Shown here in pieces: positions 28,207 to 57,355 of a stretch of DNA of 64,000 bases (positions within the stretch are counted from its first letter, which is position 1; every line of letters begins with the position of its first letter). This DNA comes from Oceaniradius stylonematis. GTDB taxonomy: Bacteria; Pseudomonadota; Alphaproteobacteria; Rhizobiales; Rhizobiaceae. The notes beneath the pieces are model-generated. The model worked only from the letters and a program-made list of their open reading frames with translations. It ran no database searches and was not told where the DNA came from. A program made the translations under genes and the position numbers. The stretch covers positions 228,614 through 292,613 of the forward strand of contig NZ_QFWV02000007.1 of NCBI RefSeq assembly GCF_003149475.2, in the 5' to 3' direction.

Positions 28207-30804
28207 TCAGAAGAAGCTCTTGCCGCGCGCCCACCATCCGGCCCGCTTGGGCTTTTCGTCGTCCGACTTGTCCGTTTCGGATACGACGACCGGTTCCACA
28301 TCGAGATTGAGATTGGCGGCTGTCGCCCGCTTGCGCGCAGGCGTTTCTTCCGCTTCGCTCCCCGATGCCGCATCGCCGTCGGCGTCGTCATTGGCCGGCG
28401 CCGGCACATCCTCGGCAGTGACCGAGCTGCCCTCCGGGGCGCTGTCGACGGCTTCGACGACATCGGCGGCCTGTGTTGGCTCGCCAGCCTGCTCGGCGAC
28501 CGGTACGCTTTCCTGTGATGTTTCCGGCGCATCGGATTCCGTGTCGGTGTCCTGACGCGCTTCGGCACTTGCCTGTTCTTCGGTCTTGCTATGCGCTTCG
28601 GCAGCGATCAGGTCGGCCAGCGGCCCGACCGGTTCGGCATCCGGAATGCGCGGGCCGCGGTCGCGCCGGTTGCGACCGCCGCGGCGGCCCCTGGACCGCC
28701 GCTTGCGCCGCCGCCCGCCCGATTGCTCGTCGTCATCCTCGCCGTCGTCGGCGGCGTCCGCACGGCTTTCGGCACCGTCGTCCTCACCGTCCTTGTCGCG
28801 TCCGCGACGGCCGCGCCGTCGCTTGCGGCGCGGACGGTCCTCGTCTTCTTCGTCCGTGGTCTCGACCTCGACGTCGACCGCTGCAACCGCGTCCTCATCG
28901 TCGTCTTCGTCAAGACCGATGCCGATGGCCGGGCTTTCGATCTTCGGCAGATCGGAAATCGCGCCCTTTTCGATGGCGAACATCTCCGCGCCGATGTCAT
29001 CGTCCATCTCGATGGTGATCTTGACGCCGAACCGGCCTTCCATCTCGACCAGCGTGTCGCGCTTGTTGTTGAGAACGTAGAGCGCCGTCGCCGCCTGGGT
29101 CCGCACCGTCACATGGTGCTTGGAGTTTTTCAAAAGATGCTCTTCCAGCGACCGGATCACATGCAGCGCCACCGATTGCGGCGAGCGCACATAGCCGGTG
29201 CCGTTGCAGGCCGGGCACACCGACATCGTGCTTTCCAGAACCGAGGCGCGCATCCGCTGGCGGCTCATCTCCAGAAGGCCGAAATGCGAGATGCGGCCGA
29301 CCTGGATGCGGGCCCGGTCGTGCTTGAGGCAATCCTTGAGTTTCTTTTCCACCGCCCGGTTGTTGCGGTTCTCGTCCATGTCGATGAAGTCGATGACGAT
29401 CAGGCCGGCAAGGTCGCGCAGGCGCAGCTGCCGCGCCACTTCCTCGGCCGCTTCCAGGTTCGTGGCGAGCGCGGTCTCCTCGATCGAGTGCTCGCGGGTC
29501 GACTTGCCGGAGTTGACGTCGATGGCGACCAGCGCCTCGGTCTGGTTGATGATGATGTAGCCGCCCGACTTGAGCGTCACCTGCGGCTGGATCAGCTTGT
29601 CGAGCTGCGCTTCGATGCCCGTGCGCGCCAGGATCGGCGCGGTTTCGCGCCACGGCTTGACCGCCTTTGCCTGGCTCGGCATCAGCATCTTCATGAAGTC
29701 CTTGGCTTCACGATAGCCGTCTTCGCCGGCGACGATGATCTCGTCGATGTCCTTGTTGTAGAGATCGCGGATCGACCGCTTGATCAGGCTGCCTTCCTCG
29801 TAGACCAGCGAGGGTGCGCTCGACGACAGCGTCAAGTCGCGCACATTGTCCCAGAGCCGCATCAGATAGTCGTAGTCGCGCTCGATCTCGGCCTGGGTGC
29901 GGTTGGCACCCGCCGTGCGCAGGATGACGCCCATGCCCTTGGGCACATCGAGCTTGCGGACAAGGTCCTTCAGCCGCTTGCGGTCGGACACGGTGGTGAT
30001 CTTGCGCGAAATGCCGCCGCCGCGCGCCGTGTTCGGCATCAGCACGGAATAGCGGCCGGCCAGCGACAGATAGGTGGTCAGCGCCGCGCCCTTGTTGCCG
30101 CGCTCTTCCTTGACGACCTGCACCAGAATCACCTGGCGCCGCTTGATCACTTCCTGGATCTTGTACTGGCGTCGCGAGGGACGTCGGCGCGGGCGGCTCT
30201 CCTCGAGCGCATCGTCTTCGCCGACATCCTCGAAATCGCTGTCCTCGTCATCGCCGTCATCGGAGGCCGCGGCATCTTCCGAGACGGTATCGCCATTGTC
30301 TGCGCGTGCGGCCCGCGCATCGCCGCCATCCTCATCCTCATCCTCGTCGTCGAGTGCGGCGAGGATGTCGTCCATCGCAACCGGCTCGGCGTCCGGCACC
30401 TGTGTCTCGCGGCGTTGGGACTTCCCGTTTCGACGCCCCCGGCCGCGGCGCCGGCGGCCCTTGCGGCCGCGTCCATTGTCGCCATCGTCCTCATCGTCGT
30501 CGAAATCGGTTTCGGCCTGCGCGGCTTCTTCGTCGAGCAGGGCCTGCCGGTCGGCGAGCGGAATTTGGTAGTAGTCGGGATGGATTTCCGAAAAGGCGAG
30601 AAAGCCGTGGCGGTTGCCGCCATAATCGACGAACGCGGCCTGCAGCGAGGGTTCGACGCGCGTCACCTTCGCCAGATAGATGTTGCCGCGTATTTGTTTC
30701 TTGTGCTGGGATTCGAAGTCGAATTCTTCGAGGCGGTTACCTTTGACGACGACTGCGCGTGTTTCCTCCGGGTGGGAGGAATCGATGATCATTCTGTTTG
30801 ACAT
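28207..30804 (-). CDS. rne: ribonuclease E
   Basis: Endoribonuclease of the RNase E/G family that starts mRNA decay and processes stable RNAs, usually membrane-associated and scaffold of a degradosome. The 865-residue product has an S1 domain split by an acidic and basic insertion at about 91-212, as in other Alphaproteobacteria. The 5' sensor/DNase-I-like core has metal-binding Asp 429 in VAIDVNSGK and Asp 472 in VIDFIDMDENR, and the Zn-link CPAC at 530-533. The C-terminal third is low-complexity, with Arg-rich and Glu/Asp-rich blocks likely to bind RNA and partners. ATG at 30804 chosen; frame open to 30963. Confidence 0.95.
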   Translation of the reverse strand: MSNRMIIDSSHPEETRAVVVKGNRLEEFDFESQHKKQIRGNIYLAKVTRVEPSLQAAFVDYGGNRHGFLAFSEIHPDYYQIPLADRQALLDEEAAQAETDFDDDEDDGDNGRGRKGRRRRGRGRRNGKSQRRETQVPDAEPVAMDDILAALDDEDEDEDGGDARAARADNGDTVSEDAAASDDGDDEDSDFEDVGEDDALEESRPRRRPSRRQYKIQEVIKRRQVILVQVVKEERGNKGAALTTYLSLAGRYSVLMPNTARGGGISRKITTVSDRKRLKDLVRKLDVPKGMGVILRTAGANRTQAEIERDYDYLMRLWDNVRDLTLSSSAPSLVYEEGSLIKRSIRDLYNKDIDEIIVAGEDGYREAKDFMKMLMPSQAKAVKPWRETAPILARTGIEAQLDKLIQPQVTLKSGGYIIINQTEALVAIDVNSGKSTREHSIEETALATNLEAAEEVARQLRLRDLAGLIVIDFIDMDENRNNRAVEKKLKDCLKHDRARIQVGRISHFGLLEMSRQRMRASVLESTMSVCPACNGTGYVRSPQSVALHVIRSLEEHLLKNSKHHVTVRTQAATALYVLNNKRDTLVEMEGRFGVKITIEMDDDIGAEMFAIEKGAISDLPKIESPAIGIGLDEDDDEDAVAAVDVEVETTDEEDEDRPRRKRRRGRRGRDKDGEDDGAESRADAADDGEDDDEQSGGRRRKRRSRGRRGGRNRRDRGPRIPDAEPVGPLADLIAAEAHSKTEEQASAEARQDTDTESDAPETSQESVPVAEQAGEPTQAADVVEAVDSAPEGSSVTAEDVPAPANDDADGDAASGSEAEETPARKRATAANLNLDVEPVVVSETDKSDDEKPKRAGWWARGKSFF

Positions 30805-31454
30805 AAGTTTTGTATCCGCCGGGCGGAGCGGCAAGCCGGCACGCCCTTTCGGGGTCGGCCGAGGTTGGCAGTGCACGCGGTGCAGGGACGGAACGGCATT
30901 CGCCGACCGTGCGCCCTTTGCCCGGATTTCTGTTAGTGGCCGTCCGCTGGCGCTCCGCCTCACGCCGCGCCGGGGCGATGTGCCCCGTAACGGGCGGGCG
31001 GTGCGAAAATGTCGAATGTCTCAACGACATGGCGGTCAGCAATTTACCAAACGGGGTCCGCCTTCGGGCGAACCGTGACATGCGCTTCAAGCATGAAGCG
31101 GGAAACAGCGAAGCGGTTTCCGAACAAACCTCGGCGGCGGCAATTGCGACGCGTCGGCAATTCTCTGTTGCGGAAGCGGCACATTCATCGTGCGCCGAAC
31201 CGCTTTGTACAAGTTAGGTTTTTGCCATTGGAACCGCAAGCAGTTTTATTCTGGCACGGCCATCCGGCAGCTCCCACGCAGGAGTTCGGCAATGTCAAAA
31301 ACGACACTCGGGCATGTCGCACACAGCACATGCCCTTGCATATCAGATCGATTAGCCACATATGCCGGCGGTCCGCGATGTGCATCCGAGACGGCTGAAC
31401 AACTGCCCTTGGGACATCATCGACAGCGCGCTGCCATCCATCACCCACGACGTT
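30805..31454. other. long divergent intergenic region between rne and the LuxR-type gene
   Basis: About 650 bases without a convincing gene. The 200 bases nearest rne are G+C-rich, include a short GGGGC-ACATC-GCCCC stem on the minus strand, and are expected to hold the rne promoter and leader. RNase E genes are often autoregulated through their leaders, but no known element was recognised. The half nearer the LuxR gene (about 31,080-31,450) is richer in A+T and probably holds its promoter. Short frames here lack codon bias or motifs. Confidence 0.5.
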
Positions 31455-31470
31455 TTGAGCGCGCGCTCAA
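31455..31470. promoter_or_regulatory. 16-bp perfect palindrome before the LuxR-type gene (lux-box-like)
   Basis: TTGAGCGCGCGCTCAA is a perfect inverted repeat ending 18 bases before the ATG of the LuxR-type regulator. Length and symmetry resemble sites of LuxR-family dimers, so autoregulation is a reasonable guess. It could instead form a hairpin in the mRNA leader. Confidence 0.45.
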
Positions 31471-31488
31471 CCTGATTCGAAAATTGCA

Positions 31489-32232
31489 ATGCCACGCTCC
31501 GCAACGCCAACGCTCGACGATACCAGAAACAGCTACCGCGAACGGGTTGCGCTGTGCACGACGACCTACGACCTGTTGCGCCTGGTCCGTGAAGTCGCCG
31601 CCGAACACGATTTCAAGTTCTTCGCGATTGCCCCGCTGCCGTCGGCGAAGGACGAAAAGCTTGCGCCGCTTGCCGTCTTGACCAACTGGCCCGAGGAGCT
31701 TCTGCGGCGTTACGACGAGTTGGAATTGCTCAAGGACAGCCCGATTTTCGGTGCGTTGCGGGCAAGCACCAAGCCCGTCGTCTGGTCCAACCGAGCCGGT
31801 GCCCGCCATTCGATCAAGGGCCATCCCCGCGAAATCCAGGACATGTTCTGTTCGTTCGGCATGTATGAGGGCGTGCATTTCAGCGTCCAGGAACCTGGCG
31901 GCAAGCGGGGTGCCGTCGGCTTTTCCGGCGACCGACCGCCGCCGGGCGAGGCCGAAATGGCCGAGCTGAACTTCGCCGCAAATTTGATCTACGAGCGCCT
32001 GCTGGAGTTGGACAAGGGTTCCAAACCGCAGAAGACGCAAAAGCTCAGCCAACGCGAAGGCGAGTGCCTGATGTGGACGGCGTCGGGCAAGACGAGCGCG
32101 GAGATCGCCATCATCCTGAAGCTGTCCGAGCACACGGTGAACCATTATCTGACGGCCGCATGCCAGAAACTGGGCGCCACCAATCGTGCCCATGCCGTCT
32201 ACAAGGCCATGCGCGCGGGTTATCTGGACTGA
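31489..32232 (+). CDS. LuxR family transcriptional regulator (VisN/VisR- or VjbR-like solo)
   Basis: A 247-residue regulator with an N-terminal autoinducer-binding-type domain (about 20-165) and a C-terminal LuxR helix-turn-helix (about 185-245: LSQREGECLMWTASGKTSAE ... LSEHTVNHYLTAACQKLG). Tryptophan, tyrosine, aspartate and tryptophan positions of the ligand pocket appear partly kept (NWPEELLRRY, KDSPIF, KPVVWS). No luxI-type synthase is nearby, so it is a solo. Its place at the edge of the flagellar cluster matches VisN/VisR of Sinorhizobium and VjbR of Brucella, which control flagellar genes. There is no clear Shine-Dalgarno before the ATG. It lies 21 bases ahead of the PAS gene. Confidence 0.85.
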   Translation: MPRSATPTLDDTRNSYRERVALCTTTYDLLRLVREVAAEHDFKFFAIAPLPSAKDEKLAPLAVLTNWPEELLRRYDELELLKDSPIFGALRASTKPVVWSNRAGARHSIKGHPREIQDMFCSFGMYEGVHFSVQEPGGKRGAVGFSGDRPPPGEAEMAELNFAANLIYERLLELDKGSKPQKTQKLSQREGECLMWTASGKTSAEIAIILKLSEHTVNHYLTAACQKLGATNRAHAVYKAMRAGYLD

Positions 32233-32253
32233 CGGGCCAGGGGGAGGAGACAA

Positions 32254-32709
32254 ATGGACCAACCGCTGCAATTTGCCGTTCATGACGGTCCGCGACCGGC
32301 ACAGCCCATGGAGCACGTGACCGTCGACGGATCGACGATCCTCGAAGTGCTGGCCCAGTTCGAGCCGTTCGGTCTGTGGCGCATGGATCTGGATACCGGA
32401 CTGGTCTACTGGACCCGCGACATCTACGAGATCCACGAGATCCCCTACCGGGACGGCCCCGTCAACGTGAAGATGGCGATCGACGCCTATCACCCGGATG
32501 ACCGCGGTCTGGTGGTCGATTGCCTCGAAGACGTCGTGGCGCGCAAATCCGGATTTCATTTCGTTCTGCGCATCGCGACCGCCGATGGGCGCTACAAGAA
32601 GGTCAAGGCGGTCGGCAAGTTCCACGTCAACGAAGACGGGCGCGAGGAACTGATCGGTACGTTCCAGGAAGACCCCGGTGGGGTGCGCGGCGTGGTGATC
32701 AAGCAGTAG
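32254..32709 (+). CDS. stand-alone PAS domain protein
   Basis: A 151-residue soluble protein made almost wholly of one PAS fold (about 35-140). The pattern GLWRMDLDTGLVYWTRDIYE, followed by HPDDRGLVVDCLEDVV and FHFVLRIATADGRYKKVKAV, matches the PAS_3 type found in sensor kinases and chemoreceptors. No output domain is attached. It follows the LuxR-type gene by 21 bases (GGGGGAGG precedes its ATG) and is probably cotranscribed, so it may modulate that regulator or another flagellar regulator. Confidence 0.85.
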   Translation: MDQPLQFAVHDGPRPAQPMEHVTVDGSTILEVLAQFEPFGLWRMDLDTGLVYWTRDIYEIHEIPYRDGPVNVKMAIDAYHPDDRGLVVDCLEDVVARKSGFHFVLRIATADGRYKKVKAVGKFHVNEDGREELIGTFQEDPGGVRGVVIKQ

Positions 32710-32727
32710 CGCGACGTGTCTGCCCGA

Positions 32728-33189
32728 TCACGAAAGGGCAGGGGGCGGCCCCGGCGTATGACCGGGCGAGAAGCTGTTGCAATGGAACGCGCGCTCCATC
32801 GTCGCCCGGCTGGCCTTGTGCAGACGCACGGCAGGGGCGCCCGAACCCAGATGCTGGAGTTCGATCGCCGCGTGATCGTCGCGGATGATCAGCCGGACGC
32901 GGGCTTCAAAGCGCGCAGCGGCAATGCTCACCCCGAGCGATACGCTCGGGCGTTCCCCCCAGTCCAGCGACAGGCCGCTGTCCCGGTCGTAGTGAATGAA
33001 GCCGGGCGCGAAATGCAGTTCCGCCGCCGCGGCAACGATCTCGGCCATGTTTGCCTCGCGGCCATTGATCACATGGTCGGCAAAAGTCGCCAGGTCGGTC
33101 AGCCGCAACTCGTCCAGAAGCGGCCGCAGGTGCCTGGCCAATACCTGTTCCAGCGCCATGTGATGCGGGTCGGTCAGCATCGCCGTCAC
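32728..33189 (-). CDS. conserved flagellar-locus protein of unknown function
   Basis: A 153-residue protein whose ATG overlaps the flhB stop (ATGA), making it the last gene of the motA-fliM-fliN-fliG-flhB operon. It has no signal peptide or membrane segment. The middle (FADHVINGREANMAEIVAAA, FAPGFIHYDRDSGLSLDWGE) does not match a family I know, though genes at the same position occur in rhizobial flagellar clusters. Tight coupling with flhB suggests a role in flagellar assembly. It converges on the PAS gene with an 18-base gap. Confidence 0.75.
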   Translation of the reverse strand: MTAMLTDPHHMALEQVLARHLRPLLDELRLTDLATFADHVINGREANMAEIVAAAAELHFAPGFIHYDRDSGLSLDWGERPSVSLGVSIAAARFEARVRLIIRDDHAAIELQHLGSGAPAVRLHKASRATMERAFHCNSFSPGHTPGPPPALS

Positions 33190-34250
33190 GCCTTCTTCTT
33201 GTTCAGGTAGACGATGATCTCGGCCACCGCCTCGAAGAATTCCGGCGGGATCGTCTGATCGATGCCGACCGCCTTGTACATGGCCCGCGTCAGCGGCGGG
33301 TTTTCGTGCACCATCACCTCGTTCTCGGCGGCGATTTCCTTGATGCGCTGGGCGATCAGGTCCTGGCCCTTGGCCACCACGACCGGCGCGGGGTCGGTCG
33401 GCGGGTTGTAGCGCAGCGCGATCGCGTAGTGGGTCGGGTTCGTCAGCACCAGCGTCGCGTTCGGGACCGCGCCCATCATCCGCTTGCGTGCCCGCTCGCG
33501 CGCGACCGACTGCATGCGCGCCTTCATCAGCGGGTCACCCTCGGCCTGCTTGTGCTCGTCGCGGATCTCCTTGTGCGACATGCGCAGATCCTTGAGCCAT
33601 TCGCGGTTGGTCCACAAAAGGTCGGCCACCGCGATCACGGCCATGGCCAGAACCATGGTGAACAAAAGCCCGAACAGGATGCGTGCCACCTGCGCCAGAA
33701 AGATCTCGGAACTGGTGATCGGCCCTTCTGCGAGCACCGGCATGATTCCGCCGGCAAAGGCCACCACACAGCCGCCGGTAAAGGCAATCTTGGCCAGCAC
33801 CTTGAAGAATTCGGCCCAGCCCTTGGCGCCGAACATGCGCTCGAAGCCCTTCTTCAGCGAAATGCGCGACAGTTCGGGCTTGATGCGCTTGAAGACGATG
33901 CGCGGCGGGTTCTGCGCGAACGATCCGGCGAGACCCGCAAAGGCGAGCCCGAGCAGCACCGGCGCCAGAATGACCATGGTGACCTCGAAGTAGCGGGTCA
34001 TGACGGTCATCGTGTCGGCGGTGGTCGCCAGGGAATACTGGCCGGCCCGGTCGAGCAGGATCTCGAGCTGGGTCTTCAGGTTCGCCGTCAGCGCGTTTGA
34101 CGCAAAGCCGATGATCGCGGTGATCGCGGTCAGCGTGAACAGGACCGGCAGTTCCTTGGAGAAGGCAGTCTGCCCCTTTTCGATGGCATCCTGCTTCTTC
34201 TTCTCGGTCGGTTCCTCGGTTTTGCTGTCCTTGTCGTCCTCATCGGCCAT
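33186..34250 (-). CDS. flhB: flagellar export apparatus protein FlhB
   Basis: Inner-membrane component of the flagellar type III export gate that switches from rod/hook to filament substrates after self-cleavage. The 354-residue product has a charged N-terminus (TEEPTEKKKQDAIEKGQ), four membrane segments (about 33-52, 88-112, 152-174, 188-212), and the cleavage motif NPTH at 271-274 in a cytoplasmic domain. Located 17 bases after fliG. Confidence 0.97.
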   Translation of the reverse strand: MADEDDKDSKTEEPTEKKKQDAIEKGQTAFSKELPVLFTLTAITAIIGFASNALTANLKTQLEILLDRAGQYSLATTADTMTVMTRYFEVTMVILAPVLLGLAFAGLAGSFAQNPPRIVFKRIKPELSRISLKKGFERMFGAKGWAEFFKVLAKIAFTGGCVVAFAGGIMPVLAEGPITSSEIFLAQVARILFGLLFTMVLAMAVIAVADLLWTNREWLKDLRMSHKEIRDEHKQAEGDPLMKARMQSVARERARKRMMGAVPNATLVLTNPTHYAIALRYNPPTDPAPVVVAKGQDLIAQRIKEIAAENEVMVHENPPLTRAMYKAVGIDQTIPPEFFEAVAEIIVYLNKKKA

Positions 34251-34267
34251 GGCCGGTCACCATGCCG

Positions 34268-35266
34268 TCAGTCGCGCTTGGGCAGCGCGATGCGGCCCTC
34301 GGAGGCCAGCTTCATGGCGAGTTGGGCGATCGACTTGCGCGCATCCTCGATCGCCGCCGGCGTGTCCTGCCCGCCGCCCGACAGTTCGGATTCGATCATC
34401 TTGCGCGCCCGCTGGCTGATCGAGGACAGAACGGCCTCCTTGAGGTCACCATCGGCACCGCGCAATGCGCGCACAAGTAGGTCGCTCGGCAGTCCGTCGA
34501 CCACCAGCGTACGGGCGCCGGCTTCCAGCAGCACCAGGTCGTCGAACCGGAACAGCCGCGATTCCAGCGCGGCCAGCTTCTTGGGATCGATCGATTCCCG
34601 CACCTTCTTCATCAGTGTCTCGCTGGCATCCTTCTGCATCGCGTTCATGATCTCGGCGACCCGCATGGGTGCTTCGTCGCTGCCGCCTGCATTCCCCTTG
34701 GCATCCAGCTTGAAGTCCTTGACCAGCGCGTGACCGACATGGGCCAGCCGTTCGCCCGGTATGTCACGCGCGGTCATCATCGCCGTCACGATGGGCGTCT
34801 GCCGTTCGTCGGGCATCGATTCGAGAACGCCGGCCGCCTTGGCCGGAGGAAGTTGCGCCATCAGCGCGGCGACGAGCTGCGGCGGTTCGCTGGCCAGCCG
34901 GCCGACGAGCACCTCATCGTCGACCGTGGCGATCAACTCCCAGGGCGACTTTTTCGGCTCCGCCGGCTTGGCGGGCTCGCCGGGCGCCTCCGGTTCGTCC
35001 TCGGGCAGCGAATCGTCCATGATCGCGTTGATCGCGTCGCGGCTGTCGATGATGCCCGATCCCTCGACGAATGCCGCCTCGAACTCGCTGACCAGCGCAT
35101 CGACGTCGGTCTGCGGCAGGTTCTTGAGCGTGTGGCCCGCATCGATCATGCGGCGCAGTTCATCGCCCTTGAAGTATTTCAGCAATTGCTTGGCACGCGG
35201 CTTGCCCATCGCGATCAGCACGGCGGCCGCCTTCTGCGACGTGGACAATGTGTAACGCTGCTGCAT
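34268..35266 (-). CDS. fliG: flagellar motor switch protein FliG
   Basis: Rotor protein that touches the MotA stator and generates torque. The 332-residue product has the N-terminal FliF-binding part (KAAAVLIAMGKPRAKQLLKY), an armadillo-like middle, and a C-terminal domain with the charged FRFDDLVLLEAGARTLV helix near 245-265, then LSSISQRARKMIESEL. An Asp/Glu/Pro-rich linker sits near 90-110. Fourth gene of the motA operon. Confidence 0.96.
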   Translation of the reverse strand: MQQRYTLSTSQKAAAVLIAMGKPRAKQLLKYFKGDELRRMIDAGHTLKNLPQTDVDALVSEFEAAFVEGSGIIDSRDAINAIMDDSLPEDEPEAPGEPAKPAEPKKSPWELIATVDDEVLVGRLASEPPQLVAALMAQLPPAKAAGVLESMPDERQTPIVTAMMTARDIPGERLAHVGHALVKDFKLDAKGNAGGSDEAPMRVAEIMNAMQKDASETLMKKVRESIDPKKLAALESRLFRFDDLVLLEAGARTLVVDGLPSDLLVRALRGADGDLKEAVLSSISQRARKMIESELSGGGQDTPAAIEDARKSIAQLAMKLASEGRIALPKRD

Positions 35267-35288
35267 GATCTGCTAAGCCCCGGTCAAG

Positions 35289-35669
35289 TCAGGCAAACAC
35301 GTTGGTGACCTTGAAGGCGAACCGGTCCGGCTCTTCCTCGGACACCTGCATCTGTCCGGTGGCGACCTTGACCCCGTTGACGAAGATGTCGATGGGATCG
35401 CCGACCCGGCTGTCGAGCGGGATGGTCGTACCCTTCTGAAGGGCGTTCAGTTCGGCAACGGACAGTTCGGCGCGACCGATGACGGCCTGCACCTCGAGCG
35501 GGATCTCACGCAGCGTGCGCGAAAGGCCCGCGGTCGTTGCCTCATTGTCCTTGTCGACCACGTCCTGCAGGTCGTTGATCGCCTTTTCGAGCGCGTCGTC
35601 CGGGTCCAGCTTCGTTTCGTCTTCGGCCTCGACGAACGCGATATGTTCTTCTTCGGCGGCATCGGCCAT
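35289..35669 (-). CDS. fliN: flagellar motor switch protein FliN
   Basis: C-ring protein. The 126-residue product has an acidic N-terminus and a SpoA domain (about 50-125) with IPLEVQAVIGRAELSVAELN, and LDSRVGDPIDIFVNGVKVATGQ. The ATG at 35669 is one base after the fliM stop; the longer frame to 35825 reads through fliM and is not used. It forms the bottom of the switch with FliM. Confidence 0.96.
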   Translation of the reverse strand: MADAAEEEHIAFVEAEDETKLDPDDALEKAINDLQDVVDKDNEATTAGLSRTLREIPLEVQAVIGRAELSVAELNALQKGTTIPLDSRVGDPIDIFVNGVKVATGQMQVSEEEPDRFAFKVTNVFA

Positions 35670-35670
35670 G

Positions 35671-36615
35671 TCATTGACCCCCTTTGATCGTGTGTTGGTG
35701 GGCATGCGCGCGCAGGGCGGCGGCGATCGGCGCGATCGGCCCCTGGATGCGCACGGCGTTGGCGTGGCCGACCCGGCCGATCTGCGTCGTGAACAGATCG
35801 CGGCCCTTGGCACGCAGGACGGCATCTCCGCCGGCGGCGGGCGCGCTTTCTATCACATCGCCCGGCTTGAGCCGCGCAACCTCGGCCAGCGTCATTTCCG
35901 CCAGCGGCAGGATCACCTCCACGGCGAGATCGAAATCGGGCACCTTGAACTCGTGGCGCTGGTTCGCGTGCGCCGCGCGCGCTTCGTCGGCGGCAAGCGT
36001 GGCCGAAAGGTCGATCAGAAGCCGGTGCGGCACGTCCAGCCAGCACCATGCACGGTTGACGCCGAACGTGATCGAAAAGGACAGCGTCGCAACCGCGTCG
36101 CCTGTCTCGTCGATCAATGCGGGATCGTCGCCGCGATAGATGTCGACCCGTCCGAACCCGAGCAGCGGCCGGTCGGTCTGCCGCGTCTGCCCGGCGGCGA
36201 CCGCCAGCGAATGCAGAACGCCGATCTCAAGCTGCGAAATCTCTCCTGCCGATGGCGGCATGTCCGCTTCCGGGTCGCAGCCCAGAAGCGCGCCGTTGAC
36301 GAGGCCGGCCGCCTGCCGGTCCAGATGCAGGGCCAGCCGGCACCGTTCCTCGGGATAGTAGAATGTGAAGCCGGCGGTTTCGGCGTTTCCGGCGGGGGGC
36401 TTGCCGGGCCGCGACGGGTCGCTCATCGTCTCGAACGCCATCACCAGATCGGGCGACAGCGTCTGCATGCGCGCCGTCATGTGCGCCTGGAACGCCGTTC
36501 CCAGGCGCTTGATGACGTTCTTCAGCCCGTCTTCGCTGACGCGCTTGCGCAAGATGCGGTCGGCAACGTCGCGGTCCTCCGGCGCCAGATCATATCTGTG
36601 CGCGAGCGTACTCAC
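35671..36615 (-). CDS. fliM: flagellar motor switch protein FliM
   Basis: C-ring protein joining FliG and FliN and, in other bacteria, binding CheY-P. The 314-residue sequence is divergent, as usual in Rhizobiales, but the C-terminal SpoA domain ([29 protein letters not shown]) and the CheC-like middle are visible. The ATG at 36615 overlaps the motA stop (ATGA). Its stop is one base before fliN. Confidence 0.9.
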
Positions 36616-37481
36616 GCCGCCTGGGCCTCATTGGCGCGCCCGGCCTCTTCCTCGACCTCCTCCAGCGAAGGCCGGTAGTAGGCCGAAATCGTCTTGCGGC
36701 CGAACTCCAGCGCCACCTGCGGCATCGAGCCGTTCATGTATGCGATCAGCGTCTGCTTGGCGACATAGTAGAGCCGGATGCCCTTTTCGCGCACGCCCTT
36801 GACCTTGGTCGCAATCGGCCCGACCACCGCATAGGCAAGGAAGATGCCCAGAAAGCTGCCGACGAGCGCCGCCGCGATCAGTCCGCCGAGGATCTCCGGG
36901 CTCTGGTCGATGGCGCCCATCGCCTTGATCACGCCCAGGATCGCCGCGACGATGCCGATCGCAGGCAGTCCGTCCGACGAATTCTGCAGGGCCTGGTAAG
37001 GCTTGAGCTTGTCGCCCTTGATGGTCGCGATTTCCTCTTCCATCAATGCTTCAACCTCGTGTGGGCGCGCATTTCCGACAATGATCAGCCGCACATAGTC
37101 GCAGATGAAATTGGTCAGATCCTCCCGCTCGAGAACCGCCGGGTACTCGGCAAATATGTCTGATTCCTCCGGATTGTCGATATGCCCCTCGACCTCGTTG
37201 CGCGGCTTGGTCTTCAATTCGCGCATCAGCCGGTGGAGCAGCCCGAGCAGTTCCAGATAATCGTCGCTTCCAGGCACCTTGTTGGTCAGCGCTTCCATGA
37301 TCGCCTTGCCGGTGTCCTTGATCGACGACATCGTGTTGGCGACGATGAAGATGCCGACTGCCGCGCCGACGATGATGACCACCTCGAAGGGCTGCCAGAG
37401 CACTTTGACGTAGCCGCCCATGGCCATGTAGCCGCCCAGCACGCAGCCGAAGGTTACAACCAGACCGATGATGATGCCCAC
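36612..37481 (-). CDS. motA: flagellar motor stator protein MotA
   Basis: Proton-channel stator subunit. The 289-residue product begins [20 protein letters not shown] with two membrane segments, has a large cytoplasmic loop (about 60-165) with charged residues that contact FliG, and two more membrane segments around the [20 protein letters not shown] stretch and [15 protein letters not shown]. It opens the minus-strand operon. Its MotB partner lies 15 kb away with motC. Confidence 0.96.
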
Positions 37482-56617: not shown

Positions 56618-57355
56618 ATGATCGTAATTGTCGACGACCGGCGCGCCGTGCTGGACGCGTATCGGAGCATGTTTTCGCGTATTGGGTATTCCGTTTACGG
56701 GATGAATTCATCGGAAATACAGGACTGGCTTGAGTCGTCACCTTCGGAAGAAGTGCAGACGATCCAGTCTTTCTTGGTTGGACAAACAAACGACGAAGAC
56801 ACGCTGATCAATGCGCTGCGTGCCAAGACGCGCGTGCCGATCATCGCCATGCTCGAGACCGGCTCCCTTGACGAGACCCTGCAGCGCTTCGACATCGGCG
56901 CCGACGATGTGGTGCGCAAGCCCGTCCATGTCCGCGAGATACTCGCGCGCATCTCGGCCATCCGCCGCCGCTCCGAGCAGAGCAAGACCTATATCGACTG
57001 CGGCCGGCTGCGCGTCTTCATGGACGGGCGCGATCCGCTCATCGACGGCAAGCCCTTCCCGCTGCCGCGCCGGGAGCGCCGCGTTCTGGAGTATCTGGCC
57101 GGCAATGGCGAGCGCCGCGCCTCGCGCACCCAGGTCTACAACGCCGTCTACGGCGTGCTCGAAGACCATGTCGAGGAGTGCGTCATCGAGAGCCACATCT
57201 CCAAACTGCGCAAGAAGCTGACCCGCATTCTCGGCGTCAACGTCATCGATTCGCGCCGTTATCTCGGTTACCGGCTTTGCATGGATTCGCTGCGCACGCC
57301 GGTGCCGATCGCCCAGCCCGCCGCAGAGCAGCCTCAGGCAAGTTTGGTCGTGTAA
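56618..57355 (+). CDS. ftcR: flagellar transcriptional regulator FtcR (Rem-like)
   Basis: OmpR-type regulator that activates flagellar genes in Brucella and (as Rem) Sinorhizobium. The 245-residue product has a receiver-like N-terminus (MIVIVDDRRAVLDAYRSMFS) and a C-terminal winged helix (PLPRRERRVLEYLAGNGERR, CVIESHISKLRKKLTRILGV, DSRRYLGYRL). The usual phospho-acceptor aspartate near residue 50 is missing (EVQTIQSFLVG there), while the later KP motif stays (VRKPVHV). It is therefore probably not controlled by phosphorylation. A 192-base upstream region holds a CtrA-type box. Confidence 0.95.
   Translation: MIVIVDDRRAVLDAYRSMFSRIGYSVYGMNSSEIQDWLESSPSEEVQTIQSFLVGQTNDEDTLINALRAKTRVPIIAMLETGSLDETLQRFDIGADDVVRKPVHVREILARISAIRRRSEQSKTYIDCGRLRVFMDGRDPLIDGKPFPLPRRERRVLEYLAGNGERRASRTQVYNAVYGVLEDHVEECVIESHISKLRKKLTRILGVNVIDSRRYLGYRLCMDSLRTPVPIAQPAAEQPQASLVV

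Follow-up and report, generated by a model that had tools for sequence, protein, structure and literature searches.

We present here an analysis of a stretch of 64,000 nucleotides (hereafter the window) from Oceaniradius stylonematis of the Rhizobiaceae (RefSeq assembly GCF_003149475.2, contig NZ_QFWV02000007.1, positions 228,614 to 292,613), and in particular of three elements that follow one another at the border of a flagellar gene cluster: a perfect 16-bp palindrome, a gene for a LuxR-type regulator and a gene for a stand-alone PAS protein. The palindrome, TTGAGCGCGCGCTCAA, has the form TTG-N10-CAA and is lux-box-like in its dimensions; 18 bases separate its end from the ATG of luxR, and 21 bases separate the end of luxR from the start of the PAS open reading frame. 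All of these features, gaps included, lie where an earlier note on this DNA had placed them. In the Pfam comparison the LuxR protein matches Autoind_bind (3e-22) and GerE (6.3e-16), and the PAS protein matches PAS_3 (PF08447) as its sole family (1.8e-8; 35 bits against a curated cut-off of 25.6). The luxR start codon of two congeneric species, G199 and G173 (genomes are denoted by G numbers and loci by L numbers, the genome of the window being G000), aligns with window position 31504, where the window has ACG; the luxR of the window thus starts 15 bases farther upstream. Overall, the results show that the conserved LuxR-PAS unit is real, and that in one genus, that of the window, it lies in the slot of visN-visR. 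According to PMC4018554, VisN-VisR are flagellar master regulators of rhizobia, and in Agrobacterium they act mainly through Rem.

The evidence for the unit comes from its distribution. Among 199 genomes of the family searched with the PAS protein, 165 are matched, mostly weakly and in large sensor proteins. We studied 30 loci among the matched genomes (one per genome), and in 25 of them (L004-L028) the frame of the PAS protein is short. A LuxR gene of the same kind immediately precedes the PAS gene, on the same strand, in 18 of the 25, and in 15 of 22 when the window and two congeners are set aside, which bears out the co-conservation of the two genes that had been proposed as a check. The gap from the LuxR stop to the PAS gene, with the first plausible start taken, is 10-46 nucleotides in the 18 pair loci; none of the five long-frame loci has a LuxR gene found alongside. 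The pairwise distances of the LuxR and the PAS proteins correlate with r = 0.91 over the 18 pairs and 0.84 over the 14 left after thinning, a value as high being reached in none of 2000 permutations; such a correlation would arise from shared descent alone too. At the level of the order, a search of 150 genomes gives 14 with PAS matches at 1e-15. Three of these matches are in short frames (G000, G029 and G235), and all three have a LuxR gene adjacent; in G235, which belongs to another family (locus L191), the two genes stand head to head, an arrangement shared by none of the other pairs examined. In addition, frames of 304-314 amino acids occur in four genomes of family f40; their second half resembles a PAS domain by eye, and no LuxR was found in these loci.

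Table 1. Features of the window and LuxR genes near flagellar genes in other genomes (coordinates after an L number are those of the locus)
Feature	Position	Strand	Remark
Perfect 16-bp palindrome TTGAGCGCGCGCTCAA	31455-31470		possible operator of the luxR-PAS operon
LuxR-type regulator, 247 aa	31489-32232	+	Autoind_bind + GerE
Stand-alone PAS protein of 151 aa, encoded by the gene that follows luxR	32254-32709	+	PAS_3
hyp153, small protein without a Pfam family	32728-33189	-	end of flhB operon, convergent with the pair
flhB-fliG-fliN-fliM-motA	33186-37481	-	transcription towards the pair
RNase E gene	28207-30963	-	divergent from luxR
OmpR/PhoB-type response regulator	56618-57355	+	between fliK and flgE; named Rem-like for its type and location
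TTAA-N7-TTAA TTAACAGCTCGTTAA	56429-56443		taken as CtrA-type full site; upstream of the Rem-like gene
LuxR without PAS, G053	L206 14813-15532		1.7 kb after fliI
LuxR without PAS, G010	L209 12282-13070		about 0.6 kb from flgF
LuxR without PAS, G066	L208 16697-17518		3.3 kb beyond fliR, flhA before fliR
LuxR without PAS, G135	L207 10215-10841		about 7.5 kb from flgK

As to the relationships of the LuxR protein, its BLASTP scores are 147-154 bits to NurR of Sinorhizobium meliloti and to the LuxR encoded upstream of NurR, 75 bits to VisR and 63 bits to VisN. In a careful 35-row tree, built with a mixture model, the window protein falls in a 12-row clade of 10 pair LuxRs and two solos (support 97/94), and joining the genus to VisR, to VisN or to both is rejected by the approximately unbiased (AU) test (p-AU 0.0033, 0.0091 and 0.0032). 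An enlarged careful tree recovers a 24-row group apart from VisR and VisN (83/84), a broad non-Vis group which also holds PAS-less LuxRs encoded in or near flagellar clusters, two of which have long branches. Likewise, VisR (99) and VisN (100) form clades of their own in a quick tree of 82 rows, where the window protein stands with other pair LuxRs; the 42-row group of this tree that includes NurR has a support of 87, which falls to 18 after dropping 3 rows. We trust the careful trees above the quick ones, and the rows of the trees were chosen by hand. On the careful trees, the window LuxR appears to group with LuxR-PAS and NurR-like LuxRs, apart from VisN and VisR.

The position of the pair is that of visN-visR elsewhere. 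In G138 and G195, visN-visR is convergent with hyp153-flhB, matching the position and orientation of the pair in the genus of the window. With the NCBIfam models, the window LuxR scores 68 bits against VisR (NF047403, cut-off 300 bits), which is its second-best match, and 54 bits against VisN (NF047402, cut-off 250 bits), in the DNA-binding part only; both are below the cut-offs, and this protein is the best match to either model in its own genome, where no VisR or VisN exceeds the cut-off. No VisR over the cut-off is found in G099 and G173 either. G199 and G200 were covered by a search with the LuxR protein only, in which the matches besides the window-type LuxR and the LuxI-linked LuxR of G199 are at 1.3e-4 or worse. 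The same LuxR search in all five species of the genus gives, beyond the window-type and LuxI-linked LuxRs, matches with E values of 5e-6 or worse; for G044, a VisR-bearing genome searched in the same way, the value is 4.8e-11. Neither VisN nor VisR is thus found in the genus by these searches. The suggestion of the earlier note that the pair stands in place of VisN-VisR accords with this and with the shared slot. In the family as a whole, VisR exceeds the cut-off in at least 39 of 199 genomes, a minimum, as a diverged VisR would score lower. We also surveyed 20 flhB loci of other genera, 18 picked for low VisR scores and two (G138 and G195) as controls, detecting LuxR genes in frames of at least 100 amino acids with a five-sequence model. 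Among the 18, the slot is without LuxR in 17 (the contig of G066 ends about 1.1 kb beyond hyp153), and one, G016, has a different LuxR-type gene in the slot adjoining hyp153-flhB (L124 10248-11228). A loss of VisNR therefore does not demand a LuxR gene there.

We then consider the palindrome. The window holds five perfect 16-bp palindromes, against 1.9 expected for independent bases and 3.4 for a first-order Markov model, so a perfect palindrome is by itself unremarkable. Its position 18 bases before the start codon is somewhat remarkable: a dyad as good occurs in 4.3% of shuffles of the luxR promoter (215 bases up to and just past the start). Related dyads stand at the aligned place in G199 (CTGACCGCGTGCTCAC) and G173 (TTGAACGCATGTTCAG), each with 5 of 8 pairs kept by our count, and in G173 one pair is altered on both sides, which we count in favour of the main reading given below. 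These two lie 30-32 bases before the start codon, and the distances fit repression or a leaderless activated transcript equally well. The lux box is a CTG-N10-CAG dyad before the target promoter; the corresponding forms are TTG-N10-CAA in G000, CTG-N10-CAC in G199 and TTG-N10-CAG in G173, with none in G099 and G200. The 3.58-Mb genome has one exact copy of the palindrome, that at luxR, and 77 sites with up to three mismatches, against 40 for a reversed control. In the window, three sites resemble it where 1.06 are expected, and 6 of 100 shuffles reach as many. A degenerate dyad made from the three species finds 15 window sites against 11.7 expected; it exceeds its reversed control in all five genomes, including the two without a dyad at luxR, so we tentatively read the excess as sequence make-up. 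On these counts, the palindrome is rejected as a marker of a regulon.

The pair adjoins hyp153-flhB in all five species of the genus, down to 67% LuxR identity. The RNase E gene is divergent from luxR in four of the five; in G200 it is not found upstream, and the link of the pair to flhB is retained. A frame opposite the RNase E gene (28591-30801, + strand), without a family, is taken as spurious. Sigma-70 promoters and terminators were both at zero in a scan of 30960-33300, Rfam gave no match in the window, and the structure models are too poor for use (mean predicted local distance difference test score 41 for PAS and 60 for LuxR, whose DNA-binding part is the most confident). hyp153 adjoins flhB in the two visNR-bearing genomes as well. 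Since hyp153 and flhB to motA are transcribed in its direction, the pair stands at the edge of the cluster and is not the first unit of any flagellar operon, and as the flhB operon is convergent with it the two have no promoter in common. The description of the pair as the head of a complete flagellar cluster holds in that flagellar genes adjoin it, but not in the sense of a head. The rest of the cluster, of rhizobial type and on the + strand, comprises orf25, flgF, fliI, flgC, flgG, flgI, flgH, fliP and flagellins, then fliF, motB, motC, fliK, the Rem-like gene, flgE and flgK, together with a second flagellin-type gene, flaF, flbT and flgD.

Among these genes, the Rem-like one has orthologues in all three congeners examined (G199, G200 and G099). 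It is preceded by TTAA-N7-TTAA, which we take to be a CtrA-type full site and which occurs once exactly in the window, against 0.02 expected in shuffles; the site is exact in G099 as in the window, and G199 and G200 each depart from it by one mismatch. A scan of 13 flagellar starts in the window gives no close copy of the palindrome (the best has 11 of 16 bases). Loose matches to YTG-N10-CAR number two against 2.1 in shuffles, one at fliK and the other 21 bases before the Rem-like gene. To judge from these motifs, the visible handle on the Rem-like gene is CtrA-like, not LuxR-like; control by the LuxR protein through a weaker or different site may still be compatible with the CtrA-like box.

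Outside the genus the picture is different. None of the 16 other pair loci (in 15 genomes, 12-20 kb each) has a match to the set of flagellar proteins derived from the window, and the proposal of a flagellar module does not extend to the pair in general. In 8 of these 15 genomes a VisR-type gene is present, next to flhB in 7 of the 8; VisR exceeds the cut-off in G178, G029, G107, G140 and G047, and scores 173-196 bits in G116, G046 and G139. The neighbours of the pair vary: YcaO and MscS in G058, an extracytoplasmic function (ECF) sigma factor in G109, an aldehyde dehydrogenase in G010, and an Lrp-type regulator with DUF2333 in G116. As for relatives without PAS, we compared LuxR and FlhB coordinates by eye among the matches listed and then checked six suspect loci. 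A PAS-less LuxR lies in or near the flagellar cluster in four of the six, that is, in at least four genomes (G053, G010, G066 and G135; Table 1), all with low VisR scores; in the other two, G048 and G141, no LuxR of this kind is found near the flagellar cluster. Both G010 and G135 also have a PAS-paired LuxR, encoded by another gene at a different place in the genome. These relatives give some support to a connection of such LuxRs with flagella; they do not speak for one of the PAS protein. For the flagellar control suggested in the earlier note, then, the visN-visR slot and this support for the LuxR alone stand in its favour, and the pair in general and the promoter copies do not.

Several observations concern the pair loci elsewhere. 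Two species of a single genus have an ECF sigma factor gene directly 3' of the LuxR-PAS pair (L082 9075-9611 and L083 9378-9914), the second case (G180) being assigned by the same frame cluster as G109, a sequence cluster only. In L012 and L017, the same places as L093 and L094, the PAS gene is kept without LuxR; in L093 it stands between Lrp-type and DUF2333 cluster frames, where relatives carry LuxR-PAS, as if LuxR had been lost. G021 has five PAS homologues of this type (on C1, C8, C25, C2 and C12, in frames of 163-300 amino acids), at least two of them with a LuxR partner.

Receptors of N-acyl-homoserine lactones (AHLs) contact the AHL through a Trp and an Asp (TraR positions). In alignments with CviR and with the LuxI-linked LuxR of its own genome, which has both residues, the window LuxR shows Leu at the Trp position and Ser at the Asp position; neither Trp nor Asp occurs there in any of the 16 aligned LuxRs (Trp 0/16, Asp 0/16). 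With both contact residues lost, the window LuxR is unlikely to have a classical AHL as its ligand. The genome has a single LuxI match, adjoining that other LuxR (C16:381598-383065; L002, L204), and the LuxR-PAS pair is on C21. The absence of a synthase partner, which had been stated for the window LuxR, is therefore true of its neighbourhood but not of the genome: the protein is a LuxR solo by neighbourhood, not for the whole cell. LuxI is matched in G199 (L203) and G173 (L205) as well, and there is no LuxI match in G099 and G200.

Based on these results, we consider it rather probable that the pair is an operon whose products, a LuxR solo from a broad NurR-like group and a soluble PAS protein, form a small sensory unit, the operon being set in the visNR slot. 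What is established is the adjacency with short gaps, the wide co-conservation, the correlated divergence, the grouping of the LuxR proteins and the loss of the two AHL-contact residues. Given the short gaps, luxR and the PAS gene would be co-transcribed. The PAS protein may sense a small molecule or the redox state and act by binding the LuxR protein, a dimer of which may bind the palindrome before its own gene and so tune its own operon; in the genus of the window, the unit would have come to occupy the place held by visN-visR in other rhizobia. The link of the pair to flagella is a possible one, resting on position both here and in the PAS-less LuxR relatives. Some of our results weigh against this reading. 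In 7 of the 25 short-frame PAS loci no LuxR is found adjacent. The solos L053 and L058, inside the 12-row clade, have no adjacent PAS gene, and this clade is not recovered when four rows, two of them long-branched, are added to the careful tree. In a quick tree of 79 rows (LG+G4), a single clade of all pair LuxRs is rejected (p-AU 0.0017), which means that gain or loss of the pairing has happened repeatedly; placing the genus with VisR (p 0.153) or with VisN (p 0.352) is not rejected. As for the palindrome, no dyad is seen in the aligned regions upstream of luxR in G099 or G200, and the dyads of G199 and G173, with their five kept pairs, are not the best dyads of their own promoters; the element, whose conservation in relatives had also been put forward as a check, is recognisable in only three of the five species.

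The same data can be read in other ways. The pair may regulate something else and stand beside flhB through a rearrangement fixed in the ancestor of the genus, with CtrA and the Rem-like regulator running the flagella. For this speak the 16 pair loci without flagellar neighbours, the varied genes found around them, the convergent flhB operon with no common promoter, and the TTAA-N7-TTAA site before the Rem-like gene, exact in two of four species and one mismatch away in the other two. It has to face the link to hyp153-flhB kept in all five species over LuxR divergence down to 67% identity, the coincidence of the location with the visN-visR slot, and the recurrence of related LuxRs near flagella in at least four other genomes, which lowered its odds slightly; we rate such a chance neighbourhood a serious possibility, a little short of an even prospect. 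A somewhat more doubtful possibility is that LuxR-PAS replaced VisN-VisR as the top flagellar regulator and drives the Rem-like or other flagellar genes, the PAS protein standing in for the second LuxR of the VisNR complex. Here the same slot and orientation as in G138 and G195, the link retained in G200 without RNase E upstream, and the lack of VisN and VisR over the cut-off in the own genome and of VisR in G099 and G173 are what one would expect, and the PAS-less relatives near flagella in at least four low-VisR genomes raised the odds slightly. Against it stand the 17 of 18 low-VisR slots without LuxR, the flagellar starts without a close palindrome copy and with loose matches at shuffle level, the VisR-type gene in 8 of 15 genomes with the pair elsewhere, the CtrA-type site at the Rem-like promoter, and G010 and G135, where the LuxR beside the flagellar genes is not the PAS-paired one.

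The two remaining explanations fare less well. Were the palindrome a lux box for the AHL-responsive LuxR of the genome, the pair would be a target of quorum sensing, and the dyad is indeed recognisable in exactly the three species with LuxI (G000, G199 and G173) and not in the two without. G199 and G173 are, however, the closest two congeners by LuxR identity, so shared ancestry explains this match. Moreover, luxI carries a different dyad upstream, ATCGGAA-N4-TTCCGAT, in all three species; none of the sites found in the luxI promoters comes close to the palindrome (at best 11-12 of 16 bases agree), and the luxI-type dyad is at chance level in the window (2 against 1.9 expected). Quorum-sensing control of the pair through the LuxI-linked LuxR is accordingly rejected as a candidate, and the explanation as a whole is improbable. 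Still less probable is that the LuxR protein is no more than a VisR that has diverged, joined late by the PAS gene, as the shared slot, the VisR model as second-best NCBIfam match (68 bits) and the 79-row quick tree would allow: the score is far below 300 bits, the BLASTP scores to NurR and its neighbour are about twice that to VisR, and the careful 35-row tree rejects the placement that the quick one did not.

LuxR solos are numerous and the signals that switch them are mostly unknown; a PAS protein whose gene directly follows that of such a regulator, as in many genera, would be a ready partner and sensor. As a tentative proposal, which we regard as rather unlikely when taken as one joint claim, the pair displaced VisN-VisR without common ancestry, with flagellar expression answering a cytoplasmic PAS signal, and NurR-like LuxRs more widely entered flagellar control several times in the absence of VisNR, once with PAS. 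If the pair does run the flagella, this would be a case of a flagellar master switch giving way to an unrelated unit of two proteins at one and the same chromosomal position.

Finally, we compare the unit with known systems. CviR, RhlR, LasR and TraR share with the window LuxR the order of domains and sequence similarity across both of them; the window protein differs in the Leu and Ser at the contact positions and in having no adjacent LuxI. VjbR and BlxR of Brucella are LuxR-type regulators of flagella and are alike by description, as LuxR-type regulators with a flagellar effect; we know of no PAS partner for either. The pair on pSK03 of Rhizobium leguminosarum (WP_017961525 and WP_017961526), annotated only as a helix-turn-helix regulator and a PAS protein, has the same gene order, with 34% (LuxR) and 33% (PAS) identity over the aligned parts. 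Unlike the pair of the window, it lies beside DUF2333 and choline-transport genes with no flagellar gene in the 12 kb shown, and its LuxR is in a separate branch of the 35-row careful tree. NurR of S. meliloti is listed as a homoserine lactone-independent LuxR solo in PMC10134790 and activates sinR according to PMC9120067. It belongs to the same broad non-Vis group at 36-39% identity and likewise lacks the Trp and Asp of AHL receptors; it differs in having another LuxR upstream and an Mrp-type ATPase gene downstream, with no PAS gene listed adjacent, and in not being at a flagellar locus. The unit is thus a LuxR solo with a PAS partner, a pairing that we did not find described: the open-licence papers, in the parts searched, gave no description of a LuxR paired with a stand-alone PAS protein, in keeping with the view of the earlier note that such a pair is undescribed. 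With respect to VisN-VisR, the window unit consists of one LuxR and one PAS protein instead of two LuxRs, its LuxR is outside the VisR and VisN clades and below both family cut-offs, and its flagellar role is suggested by position. It resembles VisN-VisR in its place and direction beside hyp153-flhB (as in two genomes), in being a two-gene unit, in the LuxR-type DNA-binding domain, and in the OmpR-type Rem-like gene that lies farther along.

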